The notes under the pieces are model-generated. The model was not told where the DNA came from. It saw only the letters and a program-made list of their open reading frames with translations, and ran no database searches. A stretch of 22,915 bases of DNA from a virus: positions 1-22,915 of the IMG/VR virus record IMGVR_UViG_3300030098_005653. One strand, 5' to 3'. This document shows, piece by piece, positions 4,407 to 12,641 of this stretch; the first letter of the stretch is position 1; each line of letters begins with the position of its first letter. A program made the translations under genes and the position numbers.

Positions 4407-4651
4407 ACGATTACTGGAGTGCCTTTGCCGTATTCTCGCATTGTGTTTGTTTCAATCCATTCCTCAGCTTCTTTTAAGTTCATGCCGTGTACTCGTTGGC
4501 GTATTAACACCAGTTTATCGTAGTCGTATGCTGCGACACTTACGCCATTGTGTAGTGCAATACCGAGCAGTGCCTCGTCTAATGCCCGATCCTCGTACAG
4601 ATAAATTTCATCCTCCTCGTCATTCGCAAAATCATTAATCGCATCGCGCAT
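4391..4651 (-). CDS. Conserved-looking acidic protein of unknown function
   Basis: An 86-residue protein, acidic at the N-terminus (NDFANDEEDEIYLYEDRALDEA). A mixed alpha/beta stretch follows (VSVAAYDYDKLVLIRQRVHGMNLKEAEEWIETNT), ending in PVIVWKPQ. The E-A-x-E-W-I-E-x-N pattern looks like a phage family but no name can be given. It overlaps genes on both sides (16 bases each), so translation is probably coupled. No catalytic motif is visible. Confidence 0.6.
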   Translation of the reverse strand: MRDAINDFANDEEDEIYLYEDRALDEALLGIALHNGVSVAAYDYDKLVLIRQRVHGMNLKEAEEWIETNTMREYGKGTPVIVWKPQ

Positions 4652-5210
4652 AAAATTTGTATTCCAGTGGTGGTAATGGCTTGAGGGAGGGAACGGGGAT
4701 AACGTAACTGTCTTTGAAAATTCCTTTGGTTTCTTTGTTGCCAGGGAAGTCAGAACAGGTAGCGTAACCAGGGAGATAGATCGTTGGGGGTTTACTGGTC
4801 CACATTAGTGGATTTTTGTCACCATCGATCAGGACCAATATGTAGATCCAATTTGGTCGTGGCGTATGTGGTGTATACAAGTTGTAGCAGTTGACTATCT
4901 TACTACTTCTCATGTAGGAACCCTTGACATCGACATTCAGACATCCAAGATCATATCCACCATCCGGTGCATCAGGATTTTGATTTCGGTGAAATCTGGT
5001 AACCATGTATTGATCGATGGAGCCGTATAGATATTTGCAATAAGCAGCGGTAGCTACCTGGCCAACGCACTGGTCCATGAGCATATATTTATCACGCTGT
5101 TCGCCACGGAACGCACTGTCTCGTTTGCCGATGCCACGGTCCATGTTGTCCAGGCCGTGAGTGACAGCTGAATTAATTTCTGCGCTGGACATATTTATTT
5201 TGTGTGGCAT
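4635..5210 (-). CDS. PD-(D/E)XK nuclease-like protein
   Basis: A 191-residue protein. Asp87 (GGYDLG) followed by Asp94-Val-Lys96 (LNVDVKGS) gives the D-x(6)-DxK signature of PD-(D/E)XK nucleases, on a predicted beta hairpin. Preceding helices (MDQCVGQVATAAYCKYLYG) fit the first core helix. The C-terminal part has aromatic and proline-rich strands (PNWIYILVLIDGD). It begins the downstream half of the early operon, 63 bases after the sigma-like gene, with CGGAGA before its ATG. It could be a restriction-like nuclease attacking host DNA or a recombination nuclease. The motif is short, so the call is moderate. Confidence 0.55.
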   Translation of the reverse strand: MPHKINMSSAEINSAVTHGLDNMDRGIGKRDSAFRGEQRDKYMLMDQCVGQVATAAYCKYLYGSIDQYMVTRFHRNQNPDAPDGGYDLGCLNVDVKGSYMRSSKIVNCYNLYTPHTPRPNWIYILVLIDGDKNPLMWTSKPPTIYLPGYATCSDFPGNKETKGIFKDSYVIPVPSLKPLPPLEYKFYARCD

Positions 5211-5273: not shown

Positions 5274-6011
5274 CTACTCGTACCTCTCCCTATGAGTACG
5301 AGCCTTCAACATCGCACCGCGTATATTTTTGATTCCTCTTTGATATTCCTGGTTTACGGCTTGTCTACTTTTGCCCATCACGCGACCGATTTGCTCGAAC
5401 GTCCAACGACGATTTCCAATAAGACCTTTATTAAACTGGATGATACGTCTGTCGTTAGATTTTTTTACGTGATGTATATAAATTTCTTTTTCTTCATATT
5501 CCTCTGGTTGTGTACTTAAAACAGCCTTATCCAAACTCACCGGATGTTGTGCGGTGTGTTTTTGTGTCTTTGGCAATTCCTCATAGGCGACCTGCGCTGC
5601 ACGCATGTACGACATTCCACCAGCAACTAATTCATTCTCTCGTTTTTTACGTTTATTGTTTTTTGCGAGATCGTGATTCGTGGCTGTTCCACCTGGGGCA
5701 CACTCGACATAAGTATCGTGGATTCCGCGAATAATCCAGTGGCGCACGTACGCACCCACGGTGTATGGAGACGATAAATCAAACTTGTCTATCGATTCGG
5801 TTAGTCGCATTAAGGTATTCTGCAACGCATCATCGACATTTAATTTGTTATGCTGGTTTATAAACTGGACACACAAACGCACCATAGATCGCACCAGTTT
5901 GTCTCGCGCTTGGTAGTCCTGATTTTCCTGCCATAACCTTACACACTCTTTTTGTTCATCATGGGTTAATGGCGCGAGGGCCATATTATCCCACTGGTTT
6001 TGTCCGCTCAT
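5274..6011 (-). CDS. Sigma-70 family-like transcription factor
   Basis: A 245-residue protein. Residues 34-100 resemble sigma region 2: ARDKLVRSMVRLCVQF, then DDALQNTLMRLTESIDKFDLSS and YTVGAYVRHWIIRGIHD, which matches the YaxxxIRxAI part of regions 2.3-2.4. Residues 203-232 (WTFEQIGRVMGKSRQAVNQEYQRGIKNIR) are a typical region 4 helix-turn-helix for -35 recognition. The middle is a charged linker. It overlaps the helicase gene by 26 bases within the early operon. By analogy with phage sigma factors it would redirect host RNA polymerase, perhaps to the late promoter near 15.9 kb. A non-sigma HTH protein with sigma-like folds is the alternative. Confidence 0.75.
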   Translation of the reverse strand: MSGQNQWDNMALAPLTHDEQKECVRLWQENQDYQARDKLVRSMVRLCVQFINQHNKLNVDDALQNTLMRLTESIDKFDLSSPYTVGAYVRHWIIRGIHDTYVECAPGGTATNHDLAKNNKRKKRENELVAGGMSYMRAAQVAYEELPKTQKHTAQHPVSLDKAVLSTQPEEYEEKEIYIHHVKKSNDRRIIQFNKGLIGNRRWTFEQIGRVMGKSRQAVNQEYQRGIKNIRGAMLKARTHRERYE

Positions 6012-7302
6012 AAAATTTTACCCATTGCGGATGCCACTTGACGTAACATGTGCCAAGCGCACCGTTTCTATTTTTCCGTATTAAAAGTTCACCATCACCA
6101 TTATCTATCTCTGGCACATGCTCCCACCCCCACCACAACATGCCTACTACATCTGCGTCCTGTTCTATCTGGCCCGAGTCACGAAGGTCAGACAAAGTAG
6201 GCCGTGATGTTTCACCCACTCTTCCTTCGATAGTTCGATTGAGCTGGGCGCACGCCAACACGGGTATCTGTAGGTCCATCGCTAATGCTTTTAGCCCACG
6301 CGATATTTGGCTGACTTCCTGCTCTCTTGAATTAGTATTGTTTCTTGCTTGCATCAGCTGCAGATAATCCACGACAACCAACCCTAATCCATGCTGACGT
6401 TGTAACCGTTTGCATCTCGCCCGTAACGCATTGAGGCTGACGCTACCACGTTGGTCTACATGGATTTTTCGTTTCTTTAGATCCTGCACTGTTAGGCTGT
6501 AGTGTTCACTTTGTTCCTTGCTTATTCTGTTTCGTTGTAGATCCGAAATGCTGATGCCAGTTTCTTGACAGAGGCAACGTAGGACTAAACTTCGAGCATC
6601 CATTTCTAAAGAGAAATATGCTACGACATCACGTTCTGCTATGTGGTGGGCTATCTGCCAGGCGAGTGCGCTTTTTCCTTTACTTGGTCTGGCTGCCAGT
6701 ATAAACAACTGCCCTGGCTGCATACCGTAGGTGAGTTGGTCGAACTGGCGAAACCCACTACCCAAACCAATCATCTCAGAGTTTTTATTTTTCTTTGCCC
6801 ACTTTTCCGCATCGGCAACAGCGGTATCTAAGGAGAGTAAACCTGTATCAGATTTGTAGTGGTCTAATAAGCCAGCCTCGACATCGGCTATCGCGCTTTC
6901 CGCATCCGCGTGCAAATCCTCTGCACGCTCTGCGAGTTGTCTACCCAATGATTGGAGTTTGCGTCTGGTTTCCAGATCCAGAATTTGTTGAGCATGATGT
7001 TTTGCGTTGGCCGTAGTAGCGACCATCGTGAACAGAGTCGTAGCGTCCATCACCGTATATTCAGGTAAGCGTGTCACGACCACACGCTGTAGCGTCAGTG
7101 GATCGATAGATTCGATGCCAGCTGTATCTGTGGTATGTATGTCTACTATAGATTTCCAGATCATTTTATTTTTTGTTGAGGCAAACGTGTTTTCAGACAC
7201 ACCCCAATCGATCAGCTCCGGTATGACATCCGGTCTATTTAACGCTGCGCTTAACACGCACTGCTCCAGCTCGTAATCCTCAATGATATTTTTATCTATC
7301 AC
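5986..7302 (-). CDS. dnaB: Replicative DNA helicase, DnaB type
   Basis: A 438-residue hexameric helicase expected to unwind the phage origin and drive the fork. The N-terminal domain (about 8-105; YELEQCVLSAALNRPDVIPEL) is typical of DnaB, and residues 110-175 form the helical linker. The RecA-like domain has Walker A ARPSKGKS (204-211), Walker B LVVVDYLQLM (308-317), and the late motif SDLRDSGQIEQDAD (371-384). The start is GTG (7300-7302), overlapping the TGA of the upstream resolvase gene, so translation is coupled. No loader, primase or initiator gene is recognised nearby. Confidence 0.94.
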   Translation of the reverse strand: MIDKNIIEDYELEQCVLSAALNRPDVIPELIDWGVSENTFASTKNKMIWKSIVDIHTTDTAGIESIDPLTLQRVVVTRLPEYTVMDATTLFTMVATTANAKHHAQQILDLETRRKLQSLGRQLAERAEDLHADAESAIADVEAGLLDHYKSDTGLLSLDTAVADAEKWAKKNKNSEMIGLGSGFRQFDQLTYGMQPGQLFILAARPSKGKSALAWQIAHHIAERDVVAYFSLEMDARSLVLRCLCQETGISISDLQRNRISKEQSEHYSLTVQDLKKRKIHVDQRGSVSLNALRARCKRLQRQHGLGLVVVDYLQLMQARNNTNSREQEVSQISRGLKALAMDLQIPVLACAQLNRTIEGRVGETSRPTLSDLRDSGQIEQDADVVGMLWWGWEHVPEIDNGDGELLIRKNRNGALGTCYVKWHPQWVKFYERTKPVG

Positions 7303-7637
7303 ATCGTTCCTATGAATTTTTTGTAGGTGGACCAGGGGAGCACAACCATTGGCTCTTGTCGATCCTCTTTCACAATCAGCATATCGTTATCGCCAAGCCA
7401 ACGGTTCAAAAGCGTGAAACCTTTGCCCTCTTTTCTTGCTTTGACTTCGACCCGATACTGGCCATCCACAATGACATCTCCGGTGTAAGATCCACCAGCT
7501 GCACCGGACAGTGGGACGCGCTCTGCGACCACTCCCATTTTTTGGTGCATCTTTACGATCTCGCGCTCAACACGGCTGCCTTTATTGCGCCTACCTTTAG
7601 CTGACAGAGGTTTAGAAGGGGTCATTAGCAATGCCAT
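7299..7637 (-). CDS. Hjc-like Holliday junction resolvase / PD-(D/E)XK endonuclease
   Basis: A 112-residue protein. SRVEREIVKMHQKMG (21-35) supplies the helical Glu, followed by a basic R-V-P-L-S-G-A-A-G-G turn, then Asp54 (TGDVIVDG) and Glu64-Val-Lys66 (RVEVKARKEG). This is the order seen in Hjc-type resolvases. The protein would cut branched recombination or replication intermediates before packaging. A second in-frame ATG at 7625 overlaps the SSB stop and is an equally good start. It sits between SSB and helicase genes, consistent with DNA processing. Confidence 0.75.
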   Translation of the reverse strand: MALLMTPSKPLSAKGRRNKGSRVEREIVKMHQKMGVVAERVPLSGAAGGSYTGDVIVDGQYRVEVKARKEGKGFTLLNRWLGDNDMLIVKEDRQEPMVVLPWSTYKKFIGTM

Positions 7638-7944
7638 CTTCAGTTACTAAGTTCACACGGTTCGCCTTAATCACCGTTTTGTATTTCTTTTCACCATCCT
7701 GTTCCCATGACTCAGTTCCTATCGATCCCTGCACATACAGTTTCTCGCCCTCGTTCATATCTCTCACTAGTTCAGCAGACTTACCCCAAACGGTTATGTT
7801 GTGATAGGTGCGAATGGTTTTGCCGTTAAATGTTTGTTCTTCGGTAAGCAGCGAGGCATTAGCAACTTGTGAATTGGCCGTGGTATTATGTCTGACATCG
7901 CCTTTTATCTCACCCAACAGGGTCACACTATTCACAGATATCAT
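7612..7944 (-). CDS. ssb: Single-stranded DNA-binding protein
   Basis: A 110-residue OB-fold protein. SVNSVTLLGEIKGDVRHNTTANSQVANASLLT and YHNITVWGKSAELVRDMNEGEKLYVQGSI follow the canonical SSB strand pattern, with the usual aromatic positions. The C-terminus ends in NDPF, a short form of the acidic D-x-P-F tip that recruits partner proteins. The linker is almost absent, so the protein is shorter than typical bacterial SSBs. AAGGAA lies 8 bases before ATG 7944; a GTG one codon earlier is possible. It coats ssDNA for replication and for the Rad52-like annealase encoded upstream in the same operon. Confidence 0.9.
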   Translation of the reverse strand: MISVNSVTLLGEIKGDVRHNTTANSQVANASLLTEEQTFNGKTIRTYHNITVWGKSAELVRDMNEGEKLYVQGSIGTESWEQDGEKKYKTVIKANRVNLVTEDGIANDPF

Positions 7945-8200
7945 CACGTAATTCCTTTCTATTTTCTACGAAGTAGCCAAAAATTGTACGGGCCACAGAT
8001 TTGTTTTTTAATAAAAAATTCAAGATCATCAACAGCGCATCAAAGTGGCTGGCATAGCCAGCGATCTTTACTTGATCTTCTTCTTTAGTCAGCAACAGAT
8101 AGCTCTCGGAATTTTCTATTAGATTGTCTACGTCCTGCACGCTCAATTCCTTTTCTTCATTGAAGTCGAAATTAATCGTTGGAATCATCGTCATCCTCAT
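7928..8200 (-). CDS. Small acidic protein of unknown function
   Basis: A 90-residue protein with an acidic central region (FNEEKELSVQDVDNLIENSESYLLLTKEEDQ), followed by a hydrophobic helix (FDALLMILNFLLKNKSVARTIFGYF) too interrupted to be a clear membrane anchor. It overlaps its neighbours on both sides (17-29 bases). Three in-frame ATGs lie close together (8200, 8194, 8188) and the third is preceded by GAGG. No family is recognised; its place between annealase and SSB genes suggests a recombination accessory. Confidence 0.5.
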   Translation of the reverse strand: MRMTMIPTINFDFNEEKELSVQDVDNLIENSESYLLLTKEEDQVKIAGYASHFDALLMILNFLLKNKSVARTIFGYFVENRKELRDDICE

Positions 8201-8405: not shown

Positions 8406-9110
8406 TTAATTGCTCCGTTGAAAATCGGTGAGACTGGCGTAGTAGGCTTTTAAGTCAGCCTCAGTTGCAGCCTCAAGTTTTATCGTCTTTGCATATTTGG
8501 TTCGAACGCGAGTTCGTGTTTCAGCGGTGAGTCGATCACTGGATAAAAGGGCGTTTTCCAGTTCCATAATTCCTTCGATGAGATCCGCTTGCGTGCTGGA
8601 GAGTTCAGTTTCTGTGATTTTCTTGTCATCGGTTTCTATTTGATCGAAGGGTATGTCGTTGGGGTCAACGGCTACTGGCGTGGGTGGAGTGTCGTCATTG
8701 GGCAACGCCCAATCAGGTAGGGCAGGGGGCTTTACTATTTTACGCTTTGAATCCAATGCTACCCAAACGGATTCTAAGCGATACAAATATCGACCTACTC
8801 CAAACTTTACTGCAGCGCGCTTGAAAGCGTCACTAAGCCCACCTTTTTCGGCCTCGACTTGTGTGTCACCTGCACCATCCGAACGGGTCACACCATGTAT
8901 AGTAATGTTACATACGACACGCCCAGCAACTTCCTGATAACTATCGGACCAGTTGTTGCCACAAACTTGATCCAGCCGATCCATCACATCTCTGGCATCC
9001 AGATAGGCGAGTGCCATGCCACGCTTATTGTCTTTAGTTGTGCTACCTACGCGCCAGTGTATCTGATTGGCAGCGAAGGGTTTACTGAGCAGATTTAACA
9101 CGTCATCCAT
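8406..9110 (-). CDS. Rad52/Rad22-like single-strand annealing protein
   Basis: A 234-residue protein. Residues 1-115 fit the Rad52/Rad22 annealing domain: LSKPFAANQIHWRVGSTT, AYLDARDVMDRLDQVCGNNWSD, VVCNITIHGVTRSDGAGD and the signature EKGGLSDAFKRAAVKFGVGRYLYRL. It would form rings that anneal complementary ssDNA in phage recombination, working with SSB and the Hjc-like resolvase. The C-terminal half (PNDIPFDQIETDD and two helices) is probably a flexible partner-binding region. Its ATG overlaps the stop of the small membrane protein gene. No partner exonuclease is identified next to it. Confidence 0.87.
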   Translation of the reverse strand: MDDVLNLLSKPFAANQIHWRVGSTTKDNKRGMALAYLDARDVMDRLDQVCGNNWSDSYQEVAGRVVCNITIHGVTRSDGAGDTQVEAEKGGLSDAFKRAAVKFGVGRYLYRLESVWVALDSKRKIVKPPALPDWALPNDDTPPTPVAVDPNDIPFDQIETDDKKITETELSSTQADLIEGIMELENALLSSDRLTAETRTRVRTKYAKTIKLEAATEADLKAYYASLTDFQRSN

Positions 9111-9320: not shown

Positions 9321-10055
9321 TTATACTTCAGCAGACTCTCGTAGTACTTTTAATTTTCTGGCCGTAATCTGCCATTTCAAATCTTTGTTTTTTCGTATCT
9401 CATCTACAGTATGGGTAAGATCCCAGATATCAATTACTTCGGCCTTAATTATCGGATTCAGGCCCTGTGTAGCGGTGCGTTTTGGTTTGCCCCGAGGAAT
9501 TATTTCTTCACGCGGACCCGCGCTGAGTGTGCAGTTGTGAATTAATATTGACGTGTCTGCGATTATGGAGGCACTGTACACATTGTAGTCGACTCTGTGG
9601 GGATGCTTGCCATTAATTTTTACTTCGTCCTCAAAATTGGGACCCAGGGCTTCTTCCCTGGTGGGAGCATCGCAATAATAGATTCTATAGTCAGGGTGAA
9701 TCCGGTGTCCGATGAGCGTTCGCGCCGTTTCGATGTCAGACCAAATTGCCAAAAACATATCGTAGATCGCTTCGTCTATTGCTGGGATACCCGTTAGGTC
9801 ATTATCGACACGGTCCACCAGCAGTTTTTCAGGAGTCGTGTGCAGGGCAAATGCCAGTTTACTAAGGGTGTTTACAGTAGGGTTTGCGGAGCCACTCACA
9901 ATTCGCTGCACAGTCGCCAGCGATGCACCCATTTCATGGGCCAGTTCGTGTGTTTTTATGTGGTTCCTGTTCATAATTTTTCGGATGTTGGTGGCCACAA
10001 CCGCGTGTATGTCAGGTGCATCAGGTTTGATTTTGAATCCAATTTTTTTTTGCAT
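9321..10055 (-). CDS. HTH (XRE) regulator with unfamiliar C-terminal domain
   Basis: A 244-residue protein. Residues 17-80 form an XRE-type helix-turn-helix (IRKIMNRNHIKTHELAHEMGASLATVQRIVSGSANPTVNTLSKLAFAL). The C-terminal 150 residues (DEAIYDMFLAIWSDIETARTLIGHRIHPDYRIYYC onward) show no LexA/CI-type Ser-Lys autoprotease motifs and match nothing I recognise. GGAGATGAC precedes the ATG. It is the first gene of the leftward operon that encodes the replication proteins, so it may autoregulate that operon, act as repressor, or have a replication role. It is divergent from the small HTH gene across a region with two matching palindromes. Confidence 0.78.
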   Translation of the reverse strand: MQKKIGFKIKPDAPDIHAVVATNIRKIMNRNHIKTHELAHEMGASLATVQRIVSGSANPTVNTLSKLAFALHTTPEKLLVDRVDNDLTGIPAIDEAIYDMFLAIWSDIETARTLIGHRIHPDYRIYYCDAPTREEALGPNFEDEVKINGKHPHRVDYNVYSASIIADTSILIHNCTLSAGPREEIIPRGKPKRTATQGLNPIIKAEVIDIWDLTHTVDEIRKNKDLKWQITARKLKVLRESAEV

Positions 10056-10130: not shown

Positions 10131-10154
10131 AAAAAACTCATATATGAGTTTTTT
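10131..10154. promoter_or_regulatory. Operator palindrome 1
   Basis: A perfect 24-bp inverted repeat with core ACTCATATATGAGT (10136-10149), flanked by a run of A on the left and T on the right. The identical core occurs at 10289-10302. It is probably bound by one of the two HTH regulators. The A/T flanks could also form a hairpin, but there is no loop, so a DNA-binding site is preferred. Confidence 0.7.
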
Positions 10155-10283: not shown

Positions 10284-10307
10284 AAAATACTCATATATGA
10301 GTATTTT
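10284..10307. promoter_or_regulatory. Operator palindrome 2
   Basis: A perfect 24-bp inverted repeat sharing the 14-base core of operator 1. Its centre (10295.5) lies 42.5 bases upstream of the first base of the -35 box at 10338. The same offset separates a related palindrome from the promoter at 11343. Confidence 0.7.
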
Positions 10308-10407: not shown

Positions 10408-10641
10408 ATGAAAGTCAGCTTACGTAAATACCGCGTGTTAGAAATCGCAGAGGCAAAAGGGTTTTCTTCACTGAAAGATTTGAGTGGAGAACTTGGATTA
10501 CACCCAACAGCACTCTCTCAATTAATGTCCAACAAAACCAATTTCACAAAAGAAACTTTGGAGAAGTTATTGACCGTTTTGGATTGCGAGTTGGGGGATA
10601 TCGTAGAGGCAGTCAAGGAAAAGGACTTGCCTAATTCGTAA
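10408..10641 (+). CDS. Small Cro/CI-type HTH regulator
   Basis: A 77-residue protein that is essentially one helix-turn-helix domain: YRVLEIAEAKGFSSLKDLSGELGLHPTALSQLMSNKTNFTKETLEKLLTVLDCELGDIVE. This is the short Cro/C1-type (HTH_26-like) form. ATG 10408 was chosen because GAGGTG lies just upstream; GTG 10402 is an alternative. It is a single-gene transcript: an intrinsic terminator follows 37 bases after the stop. It would bind the neighbouring palindromes and oppose or complement the leftward HTH protein. Which one is the lysogeny repressor cannot be told from sequence. Confidence 0.85.
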   Translation: MKVSLRKYRVLEIAEAKGFSSLKDLSGELGLHPTALSQLMSNKTNFTKETLEKLLTVLDCELGDIVEAVKEKDLPNS

Positions 10642-10677: not shown

Positions 10678-10715
10678 GCCTCTGTAGTCCTTCGGGATTG
10701 CAGGGGCTTTTTTTT
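10678..10715 (+). terminator. Rho-independent terminator after the small HTH gene
   Basis: GCCTCTG pairs with CAGGGGC, and an inner TCC/GGG pairing closes a TTC loop with small bulges. Eight T residues follow (10708-10715). It separates the regulator gene from the iteron array. Confidence 0.85.
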
Positions 10716-10901
10716 GGAATCCGAACCCCTATCAACTCAATTTGGAATCCTCTCTCTTATCAACTCAATTTGGAATCTCAATACCTATCAACTCAAATTT
10801 GGAATTTGGACTTATATCAACTCAAAATAATTTTGGAATTGGTGCGCCTATCAACTCAAAATAATTTTGGAATTTCGACCTCTATCAACTCAATTTAAGT
10901 C
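10713..10901 (+). repeat. Iteron-like array, six tandem direct repeats
   Basis: TATCAACTCAA occurs at 10730, 10758, 10786, 10815, 10849 and 10883, spaced 28, 28, 29, 34 and 34 bases. In the first five units it is followed, after 0, 0, 1, 5 and 5 inserted A/T bases, by TTTGGAAT. The last unit has degenerated to TTTAAGTC, and a lone TTTGGAATC (10713) precedes the first. About 8 variable bases separate units. All copies have one orientation and lie beside a T-rich tract, as in iteron origins. The binding protein is not known. Confidence 0.8.
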
Positions 10902-10952
10902 GTTATATATATAATTTTTTTGTTTTTTATTTTTTTATTTTTTTTTGTTTTC
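10902..10952 (+). other. T-rich AT tract, candidate DNA unwinding element
   Basis: Nearly pure A/T with long T runs, immediately after the last iteron. Such a tract next to iterons is where origin melting normally occurs. No DnaA box with the TTATCCACA consensus is visible nearby, so unwinding by a phage protein would be needed if this is an origin. Confidence 0.5.
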
Positions 10953-11145: not shown

Positions 11146-11288
11146 CCCCCACCCCACCCGGGGCACCCCCTTATTTTTCAGGAATTGCCAAAACTAAACC
11201 CCCTGGAATATTACACCCCTGGAATGCTTCAACACTGGCCAGCATCAAAGCAGCCCCCCCCACCCCACTAGGGGCACCCCCTTATTTT
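11146..11288 (+). repeat. C-rich direct repeat pair
   Basis: A 32-base C-rich unit at 11146-11177 recurs at 11257-11288, matching at 30 of 32 positions. Each has CCCCCACCCCAC, then GGGGCACCCCC, then TTATTTT. The GGGG inside each copy can pair with CCCC on either side. The surrounding 300 bases are rich in C runs on this strand. Confidence 0.75.
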
Positions 11289-11291
11289 GTG

Positions 11292-11309
11292 ATATTCATA
11301 AATGAATAT
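11292..11309. promoter_or_regulatory. Operator-like palindrome upstream of the DUF932 promoter
   Basis: ATATTCAT-AA-ATGAATAT. The half-sites TCAT and ATGA have the same 2-base spacing as the two switch operators. The centre is 42.5 bases upstream of the -35 box at 11343, the same offset as operator 2 from its promoter. Confidence 0.55.
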
Positions 11310-11342: not shown

Positions 11343-11372
11343 TTGACATTAATATATATTTATTATTATTAT
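11343..11372 (+). promoter_or_regulatory. Promoter of the DUF932 operon
   Basis: Consensus TTGACA (11343-11348), an 18-base spacer and TATTAT (11367-11372), in AT-rich DNA. The leader is about 70 bases, ending with GAGGTG before the ATG at 11451. Confidence 0.65.
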
Positions 11373-11450
11373 TAACATGAACGGGGCAAACTGCTCCAAA
11401 TTACTGCCCTACCCTATCAAGGGCGCACACTTTTAGCGAGGTGAAAAAAT

Positions 11451-12641
11451 ATGATAGATCAAAAAAAGAATGTTGTGACTGCGTTTAATCAATGGAAATC
11501 AAGACCAGCTGAGGAACGCTTTCTTGATATAGATCAAATGCAGGCAGTAATGACGAAACGGCGCGAACGGTGCGAAGATGTAGGCCCGTACAGCGTGGCC
11601 GATATGACAGTCGAACCAGGACCCGAAAATAGTCTAGCCCTGGTTGATGGTGATAACGGGGGCGCACTCTTAAACAATTTTTCACTTAACCAGTTAGCTG
11701 CATCAGTAAAAGCTCCAGCTGGATACCTTAGAACGCTACCCAATCACTTAGCAGCCGAATGCTTAAACGAAGGGCTTCCCGAATTTGGCGAAACAGAACG
11801 CCATTTATTGTATGAGCATGGGGATCAAGTAGGCACCATTCGAGCGATAACCAGCCCCCAGTACTCCCGTTATTGGGATAATGAAGTAATAGCCGATTTA
11901 GCCAACAGCTTGCAAGCGGATGGCTGGAGGGTTCCACCCTGTAGACCGTTCCCTGGGTGCCCCGATAATATGACTTGGACAGCAACAGCAAACGACATAC
12001 TGCCTGGTGATTCCCAAAAACTAAGTATAAGAGAAGGTGATTTATGCGGGCCTGGTGGGCTGTACAGTTCGGACCGTGACAGCTTTGTTTTTATGGTGAA
12101 CCAAAACCGAACAATAGAAACCCCAAGCGGGCCAATGTTTAGGGCGTTAATCTGTAAGAATTCCGAAGTTGGCCAAGCTGCTTTTGGTATTAGCTGTTTT
12201 TTATATAGTGCTGTATGTGGAAATCATATTATGTGGGGCGCTGCTGAAGTTGCTGACGTAAAGATTAGGCATAGGGGCGAAGCTGATTTGGCTGCAATAC
12301 GTGCAAAGGCTGCAATGGCTGGAGCAGTAGCAGCAGCCGAAAACGCCAGCAGTTACGTTGAAGAGACTACAATATCACTAGCAGCTGAAACACTAACAGA
12401 CAGCAATGCAGTGCAGCAAGCTACTAAACTCCCAAAGGATACAATCTTAGCAGCTGAAACTTTGGCCAAGGAGTATCCACAGGACCACGGGGACCGATTA
12501 GGTACAACCTGGGCATGGGTGCAAGGTCTAACAAGGGCCAGCCAGCAACGTGGGTACACAGCGGACCGGGCCAGCATTGATGGAGCAGCAGCCAACTTGC
12601 TTAAACCTATAGCAAAGCAGGTGCACAGTGTTGCAGCATAG
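11451..12641 (+). CDS. DUF932 family phage/plasmid protein
   Basis: A 396-residue protein. Residues 70-290 match the DUF932 pattern by eye: LNQLAASVKAPAGYLRTLPNHLAAECLN, ITSPQYSRYWDNEVIADL, VFMVNQNRTIE and FRALICKNSEVGQAAFGISCFLYSAVCGNHIMWG. DUF932 proteins are common in phages and plasmids; their biochemical role is not established. The C-terminal part is alanine-rich and helical. The start has GAGGTG 7 bases upstream. It is the first gene of the rightward accessory operon ending at the terminator at 13281. Frequent CCAG words and heavy C/G runs set this block apart from the left arm. Confidence 0.85.
   Translation: MIDQKKNVVTAFNQWKSRPAEERFLDIDQMQAVMTKRRERCEDVGPYSVADMTVEPGPENSLALVDGDNGGALLNNFSLNQLAASVKAPAGYLRTLPNHLAAECLNEGLPEFGETERHLLYEHGDQVGTIRAITSPQYSRYWDNEVIADLANSLQADGWRVPPCRPFPGCPDNMTWTATANDILPGDSQKLSIREGDLCGPGGLYSSDRDSFVFMVNQNRTIETPSGPMFRALICKNSEVGQAAFGISCFLYSAVCGNHIMWGAAEVADVKIRHRGEADLAAIRAKAAMAGAVAAAENASSYVEETTISLAAETLTDSNAVQQATKLPKDTILAAETLAKEYPQDHGDRLGTTWAWVQGLTRASQQRGYTADRASIDGAAANLLKPIAKQVHSVAA

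Follow-up and report, generated by a model that had tools for sequence, protein, structure and literature searches.

The question raised by this locus is what a run of tandem repeats, lying in non-coding DNA near the replication genes of a phage, is for, and whether it is a replication origin, as the initial annotation had proposed. The window analysed here is a stretch of 22,915 bases, covering bases 1-22915 of the 37,416-base metagenomic virus record IMGVR_UViG_3300030098_005653, and the phage was judged to be temperate from its tyrosine integrase (Pfam and PHROG profile matches). In the window, 809 non-coding bases separate a cro-like gene from a DUF932-family gene, and they contain, in order, the terminator of the cro-like gene, six repeat units, a tract rich in T, a stretch rich in C and a promoter. 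The features of this region are as follows.

10408-10641, plus strand: cro-like HTH gene, directly 5' of the array (Pfam HTH_26, 3e-10)
10678-10712, plus strand: intrinsic terminator of the cro-like gene (terminator prediction, 10678-10707)
10713-10740, plus strand: unit 1, TTTGGAAT-CCGAACCCC-TATCAACTCAA, exact match
10741-10768, plus strand: unit 2, TTTGGAAT-CCTCTCTCT-TATCAACTCAA, exact match
10769-10796, plus strand: unit 3, TTTGGAAT-CTCAATACC-TATCAACTCAA, exact match
10798-10825, plus strand: unit 4, TTTGGAAT-TTGGACTTA-TATCAACTCAA, exact match
10832-10859, plus strand: unit 5, TTTGGAAT-TGGTGCGCC-TATCAACTCAA, exact match, 34-bp repeat type
10866-10893, plus strand: unit 6, TTTGGAAT-TTCGACCTC-TATCAACTCAA, complete, exact match
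10894-10951, plus strand: T-rich tract, a candidate for DNA unwinding in close-group phages alone
11343-11372, plus strand: promoter-like site TTGACA-N18-TATTAT for the DUF932 gene
11451-12641, plus strand: DUF932-family gene (Pfam DUF932, 2e-10), a candidate partner of the array

The array unit is TTTGGAAT-N9-TATCAACTCAA, 28 bp long, and is present in six same-strand copies at 10713-10893, the number given in the initial annotation and all of them complete, with starts at 10713, 10741, 10769, 10798, 10832 and 10866 and start-to-start spacings of 28, 28, 29, 34 and 34. In all six units, TTTGGAAT and TATCAACTCAA are separated by nine bases whose letters differ each time, and the only variable spacing is the gap between units (0, 0, 1, 6 and 6 bp). 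The terminator before the array has its U-tract in the first T's of unit 1. The array is genuine and not a product of chance: a scan of the window for this pattern, allowing up to three mismatches in its 19 fixed letters, returned six matches, all exact, while 100 dinucleotide shuffles averaged 0.01 matches and in no case reached six, and the rest of the 37,416-base record contained no further match at the same threshold. A coding explanation was rejected, as the 66-codon TTG frame that spans the array would be thrown out of phase by spacings of 28, 29 and 34 bp, and also by the differing gaps of the relatives.

The unit has to be read with TTTGGAAT first, since its spacing to TATCAACTCAA is constant here and in nearly all relatives; the initial annotation had used the opposite phase, and the TATCAACTCAA-to-TTTGGAAT distance that it took as internal is the variable gap between units. 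Given the fixed spacing, no unit is truncated, and the reported loss of the second half of the last unit disappears, six of six units being complete. The widening of the gap along the array, also described earlier, does occur in this phage, but it is not a conserved design: units in the relative L020 follow each other at a constant 29 bp, L004 has eight units, with the last two 34-bp units (units 5 and 6) duplicated, and other relatives show long irregular gaps. The gradient is a by-product of two unit lengths, as indicated by the duplicated units of L004 and the constant spacing of L020.

The suggested comparison with related phages was carried out by searching for the exact motif, which gave four other IMG/VR contigs, and for the DnaB protein, which gave 25 loci, while a resolvase profile search added one more array-bearing contig (L060). 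In total, the array was common to 16 contigs (this one and 15 other metagenomic phage contigs), always in the same place, after the cro-like terminator and before the DUF932 gene wherever a contig covers the side concerned. The cro-like HTH gene was found in every array-bearing contig spanning its position, the gene next after the array was always DUF932 (48-96% identical among syntenic relatives), and the array started in, or no more than about 15 nt from, the terminator U-tract in every relative whose 5' array end could be read. It was kept even where DnaB identity was only 53-60%.

Across the lineage, the unit consists of an A box, TTTTGRAAT followed by a pyrimidine, and a B box, WATCAACTCMA, and every unit points the same way. 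Within the B box, ATCAA and the following TC are almost invariant, and the W is T in about half of the units and A in the other half. The A box lies at a constant offset from the B box in nearly all of the approximately 58 genuine units from 13 contigs (the unit table has 60 rows, two of which are chance matches in L025 and L029, near the DUF932 promoter); the exceptions are the first L016 unit, in which no clear A box is present, and one L060 unit with ten bases between the boxes. Relatives carry three to eight units per array, and successive units can lie anything between 0 and about 107 bp apart. Judged from alignment columns, the boxes are under purifying selection in four close relatives, where 48 of 48 A-box columns and 65 of 66 B-box columns were invariant (99% for the boxes), together with 46 of 54 columns in the N9 spacers (85%), 45 of 58 in the T tract and 103 of 348 in the downstream C-rich DNA (30%). 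On these comparisons, the array is a real, selected and lineage-wide element.

A looser pattern scan recovered this lineage and isolated single matches in unrelated contigs, without neighbouring units. Named phages yielded no DNA match, and their best DnaB matches were about 34% identical. Concerning the host, a search with the DUF932 profile gave no genome match, and one with the resolvase profile gave only matches of 39-50% identity, with neither the array nor the full module. The literature search returned general origin models and nothing on the present array.

The array is linked to the early module, whose leftward operon is syntenic throughout the lineage and comprises erf, two small genes, ssb, a resolvase gene, dnaB, a sigma70-type sigma gene and a gene for a protein with a nuclease-like motif. 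In the window, the following genes of this region were annotated.

5986-7302, minus strand: DnaB-like replicative helicase (Pfam DnaB_C, 4e-81)
7612-7947, minus strand: SSB (Pfam, 2e-16)
8406-9110, minus strand: Erf/Rad52-type annealing protein (Pfam, 3e-17; PHROG, 7e-49)
9321-10055: repressor gene

The phage-coded sigma factor (5274-6011, minus strand) is a sigma70 factor of primary type that overlaps dnaB and is kept lineage-wide; its profile matches are to SigA/RpoD, with SigA the best (4e-22). A conserved 191-aa early protein (4635-5210, minus strand) has no Pfam match, but its invariant D-x-G-x(2)-N-x-D-V-K pattern hints at a PD-(D/E)XK nuclease.

The relative G001 (L054/L055) is a natural module swap. 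Compared with this phage, its structural and packaging proteins are close (terL 95%, mcp 92%, portal 92% and TerS 85% identical), whereas identity among its early proteins is just 27-76%, and its array, with the unit TTTAAATT-N9-AATCAACTCA, is both diverged and shorter. As the structural genes are conserved while the array and the early module have diverged together, the array goes together with the early/replication module, not with the packaging genes. G001 also possesses two tyrosine integrase genes at opposite contig ends (bases 221-1600 and 38100-38954), 95% and 71% identical to the integrase of the window, which may reflect a recombinant phage, a prophage junction or a chimeric assembly.

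The T-rich tract beside the array is present here as first described, at about 10910-10951: the 60 nt after the last B box are 90% AT and 72% T, and few stretches of the genome are less stable than the tract, although 15705 and 11299 are. This feature is limited to the closest relatives, however, since AT content directly 3' of the array is 82-90% in the close group but mostly 43-55% in distant relatives (68% in L016), for a genome-wide value of 55%. Several distant relatives have AT-rich TTAAT-N8-TTAA elements further downstream, up to three of them with 24-bp spacing. In the cro-DUF932 intergenic region of L025, L029 and L020, the main array has a further one 3' of it, made of two to three AT-rich 24-bp repeats of the TTTAATGGCGATTTATTAAGCTGG type and followed by a conserved TRTTGYCAAT; these repeats could be an unwinding element or a second binding site. 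The proposed check of cumulative GC skew placed the minimum at 11418, a position in favour of an origin but confounded, since leftward genes give way to rightward ones there; in G001, about 1.5 kb separates the minimum from the array. A C-rich 32-nt hairpin repeat ending in TTATTTT occurs in two copies (11146-11177 and 11257-11288, 94% identical) and is reshuffled among close relatives; it may be either a terminator-like element or a mobile small repeat.

With moderate confidence, the array is interpreted as a group of iterons to which an initiator binds and which make up the recognition part of the phage lytic replication origin. This proposal of the initial annotation stands as the best single explanation, but on other grounds: the graded gap and the lost half were artefacts of framing and the melting-prone tract is not shared by distant relatives, so that the original reasons carry less weight, and the origin is favoured because of the deep conservation of position and motif, the adjoining replication module and the way in which the array tracks that module. 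Multiple conserved same-orientation sites and linked dnaB, ssb, erf and resolvase genes were found, as in iteron origins. Searches of the early genes against Pfam and PHROGs detected no recognisable initiator family and no helicase loader; the array may therefore be said to work like an iteron origin, and is not a proven member of that class.

In the proposed mechanism, each unit would act as a single two-box site, the A box TTTTGRAAT and the B box WATCAACTCMA being held 9 bp apart, and a phage-coded initiator would bind the units side by side and wrap or bend the DNA. AT-rich DNA 3' of the array would then open, at the T tract in this phage and possibly at the AT-rich repeats further downstream in distant relatives, and we infer that the phage DnaB would be loaded there, followed by host primase and polymerase. 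The origin of lambda is activated by transcription from PR; here, rightward transcription from the cro promoter past the terminator could likewise activate the origin. The first candidates for the initiator are the DUF932 protein and the cro-like protein, on account of their adjacency and constant presence. The predicted DUF932 fold was of low confidence (mean pLDDT 57.5), and a structure comparison with it matched nothing. It is possible, if rather doubtful, that the initiator comes from a family not known for starting replication, for example that of the DUF932 protein or of the very small cro-like HTH protein, and that a long two-box iteron takes the place of an O- or gp38-type site. The uncultured temperate-phage lineage gains a well-defined candidate origin, whose motif TTTTGRAAT-N9-WATCAACTCMA is shared by the whole family. 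If this reading is true, the array could be used as bait for an initiator not yet recognised, and DUF932, a family of obscure role that occurs in phages, might be given a function.

The main rival of the origin reading, although an unlikely one, is that the units are sites for a phage or host transcription regulator, which would set the level of read-through out of cro into the rightward operon or would silence it, with no start of replication. In every relative, the array indeed has the cro terminator on one side and the DUF932 promoter on the other, and the cro-like HTH protein always adjoins it; the repressor gene has no room in the array-bearing L020, L025 and L029, and the repressor is therefore not the reader of the array. 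However, no A or B box was found in the rep/cro switch region of ten lineage phages, nor elsewhere in the genome, the switch has perfect dyads of its own (ACTCATATATGAGT), and the array is located about 450 bp upstream of the DUF932 promoter. An identity as lysogeny-switch operators was rejected, as none of the ten switch regions contained an array half-site and other dyads occur there in this phage. These are two perfect 24-bp palindromes with the core ACTCATATATGAGT, at 10131-10154 and 10284-10307 between the divergent repressor and cro-like genes, and they are probably the lysogeny-switch operators; a weaker copy, ATTCATAAATGAAT, lies at 11294-11307, upstream of the DUF932 promoter. Dispersed single sites of the L5 stoperator type were dismissed because all matches in the 37.4 kb are confined to the array, and tandem sigma-factor promoters because the motif (up to three mismatches) is absent upstream of other genes over the whole 37.4 kb. 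The same absence, together with the primary type of the phage sigma70, set aside a likeness to ECF promoters (GGAAT-N16-TCAA).

Binding by an architectural protein of the IHF/HU family, for which the units would provide an A/T-rich element 9 bp upstream of WATCAA, is a good deal less probable. The B box begins with an invariant WATCAA and has the A/T-rich A box to its left, and strong IHF sites have such an A/T-rich element (A-tract) on their left (PMC8421141). The full IHF consensus, WATCAANNNNTTR (PMC4585315), was nevertheless found in none of 59 units, its TTR element being missing, and the additional invariant TC(A/C) core is unaccounted for by an IHF site.

Two further explanations are very improbable. 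Same-strand direct repeats in a non-coding region would suit a centromere or partition site of a plasmid-like prophage, or incompatibility or copy-control iterons, but no ParA, ParB or ParM-like gene was present among the genes examined, and a tyrosine integrase is encoded by the phage. An RNA containing repeats (an antitoxin RNA, for example of type III, a sponge or a structured leader) would be in keeping with an array directly 3' of a transcription unit, as such RNAs can hold tandem repeats; yet the array shows no more stable a fold than shuffled sequence does (z = +1.54), gives no Rfam match, lies 3' of the terminator and contains no plus-strand promoter-like site. A pac or cos packaging site read by the small terminase, whose sites can be directional repeats, is extremely unlikely, given the distance of about 5.5 kb from terS and the diverged, shorter array of G001 despite its conserved TerS and TerL.

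Among known systems, the boxes of the SPP1 origins are two-part. The SPP1 origins oriL and oriR combine direct repeats with an AT-rich DUE and are served by gp38, gp39 and a DnaB-type helicase (PMC6316719). The present locus resembles them in its direct repeats, candidate AT-rich DUE (close group) and phage-coded DnaB-type helicase, annealing protein and Holliday resolvase, but SPP1 oriL lies inside gene 38, whereas no gp38 or gp39 homologue was recognised here and there is one array instead of two. Lambdoid origins have four iterons in lambda and six in Stx phages, plus an AT tract (PMC7466680), and share with the array clustered sites of the same type, an AT-rich flank (here in the close group), a location in the early region to the right of cro and a variable iteron number. 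They differ in that the lambda sites lie inside the O gene, whereas the units described here are non-coding, 28-34 bp long and made of two boxes whose 9-bp gap is conserved; nor was any O- or P-like gene recognised. Plasmid iteron origins likewise show tandem same-orientation sites, a possible AT-rich DUE and an adjoining conserved gene; here, no known Rep family was found in the window, and the bipartite unit exceeds the usual size of about 20 bp. The likeness to an IHF site extends to WATCAA with an A/T-rich element to its left, the array units differing by the missing TTR (59 of 59) and the extra conserved CTC. The overall plan is thus a familiar one; the novelty lies in the motif, in the fixed two-box design and most of all in the putative initiator.
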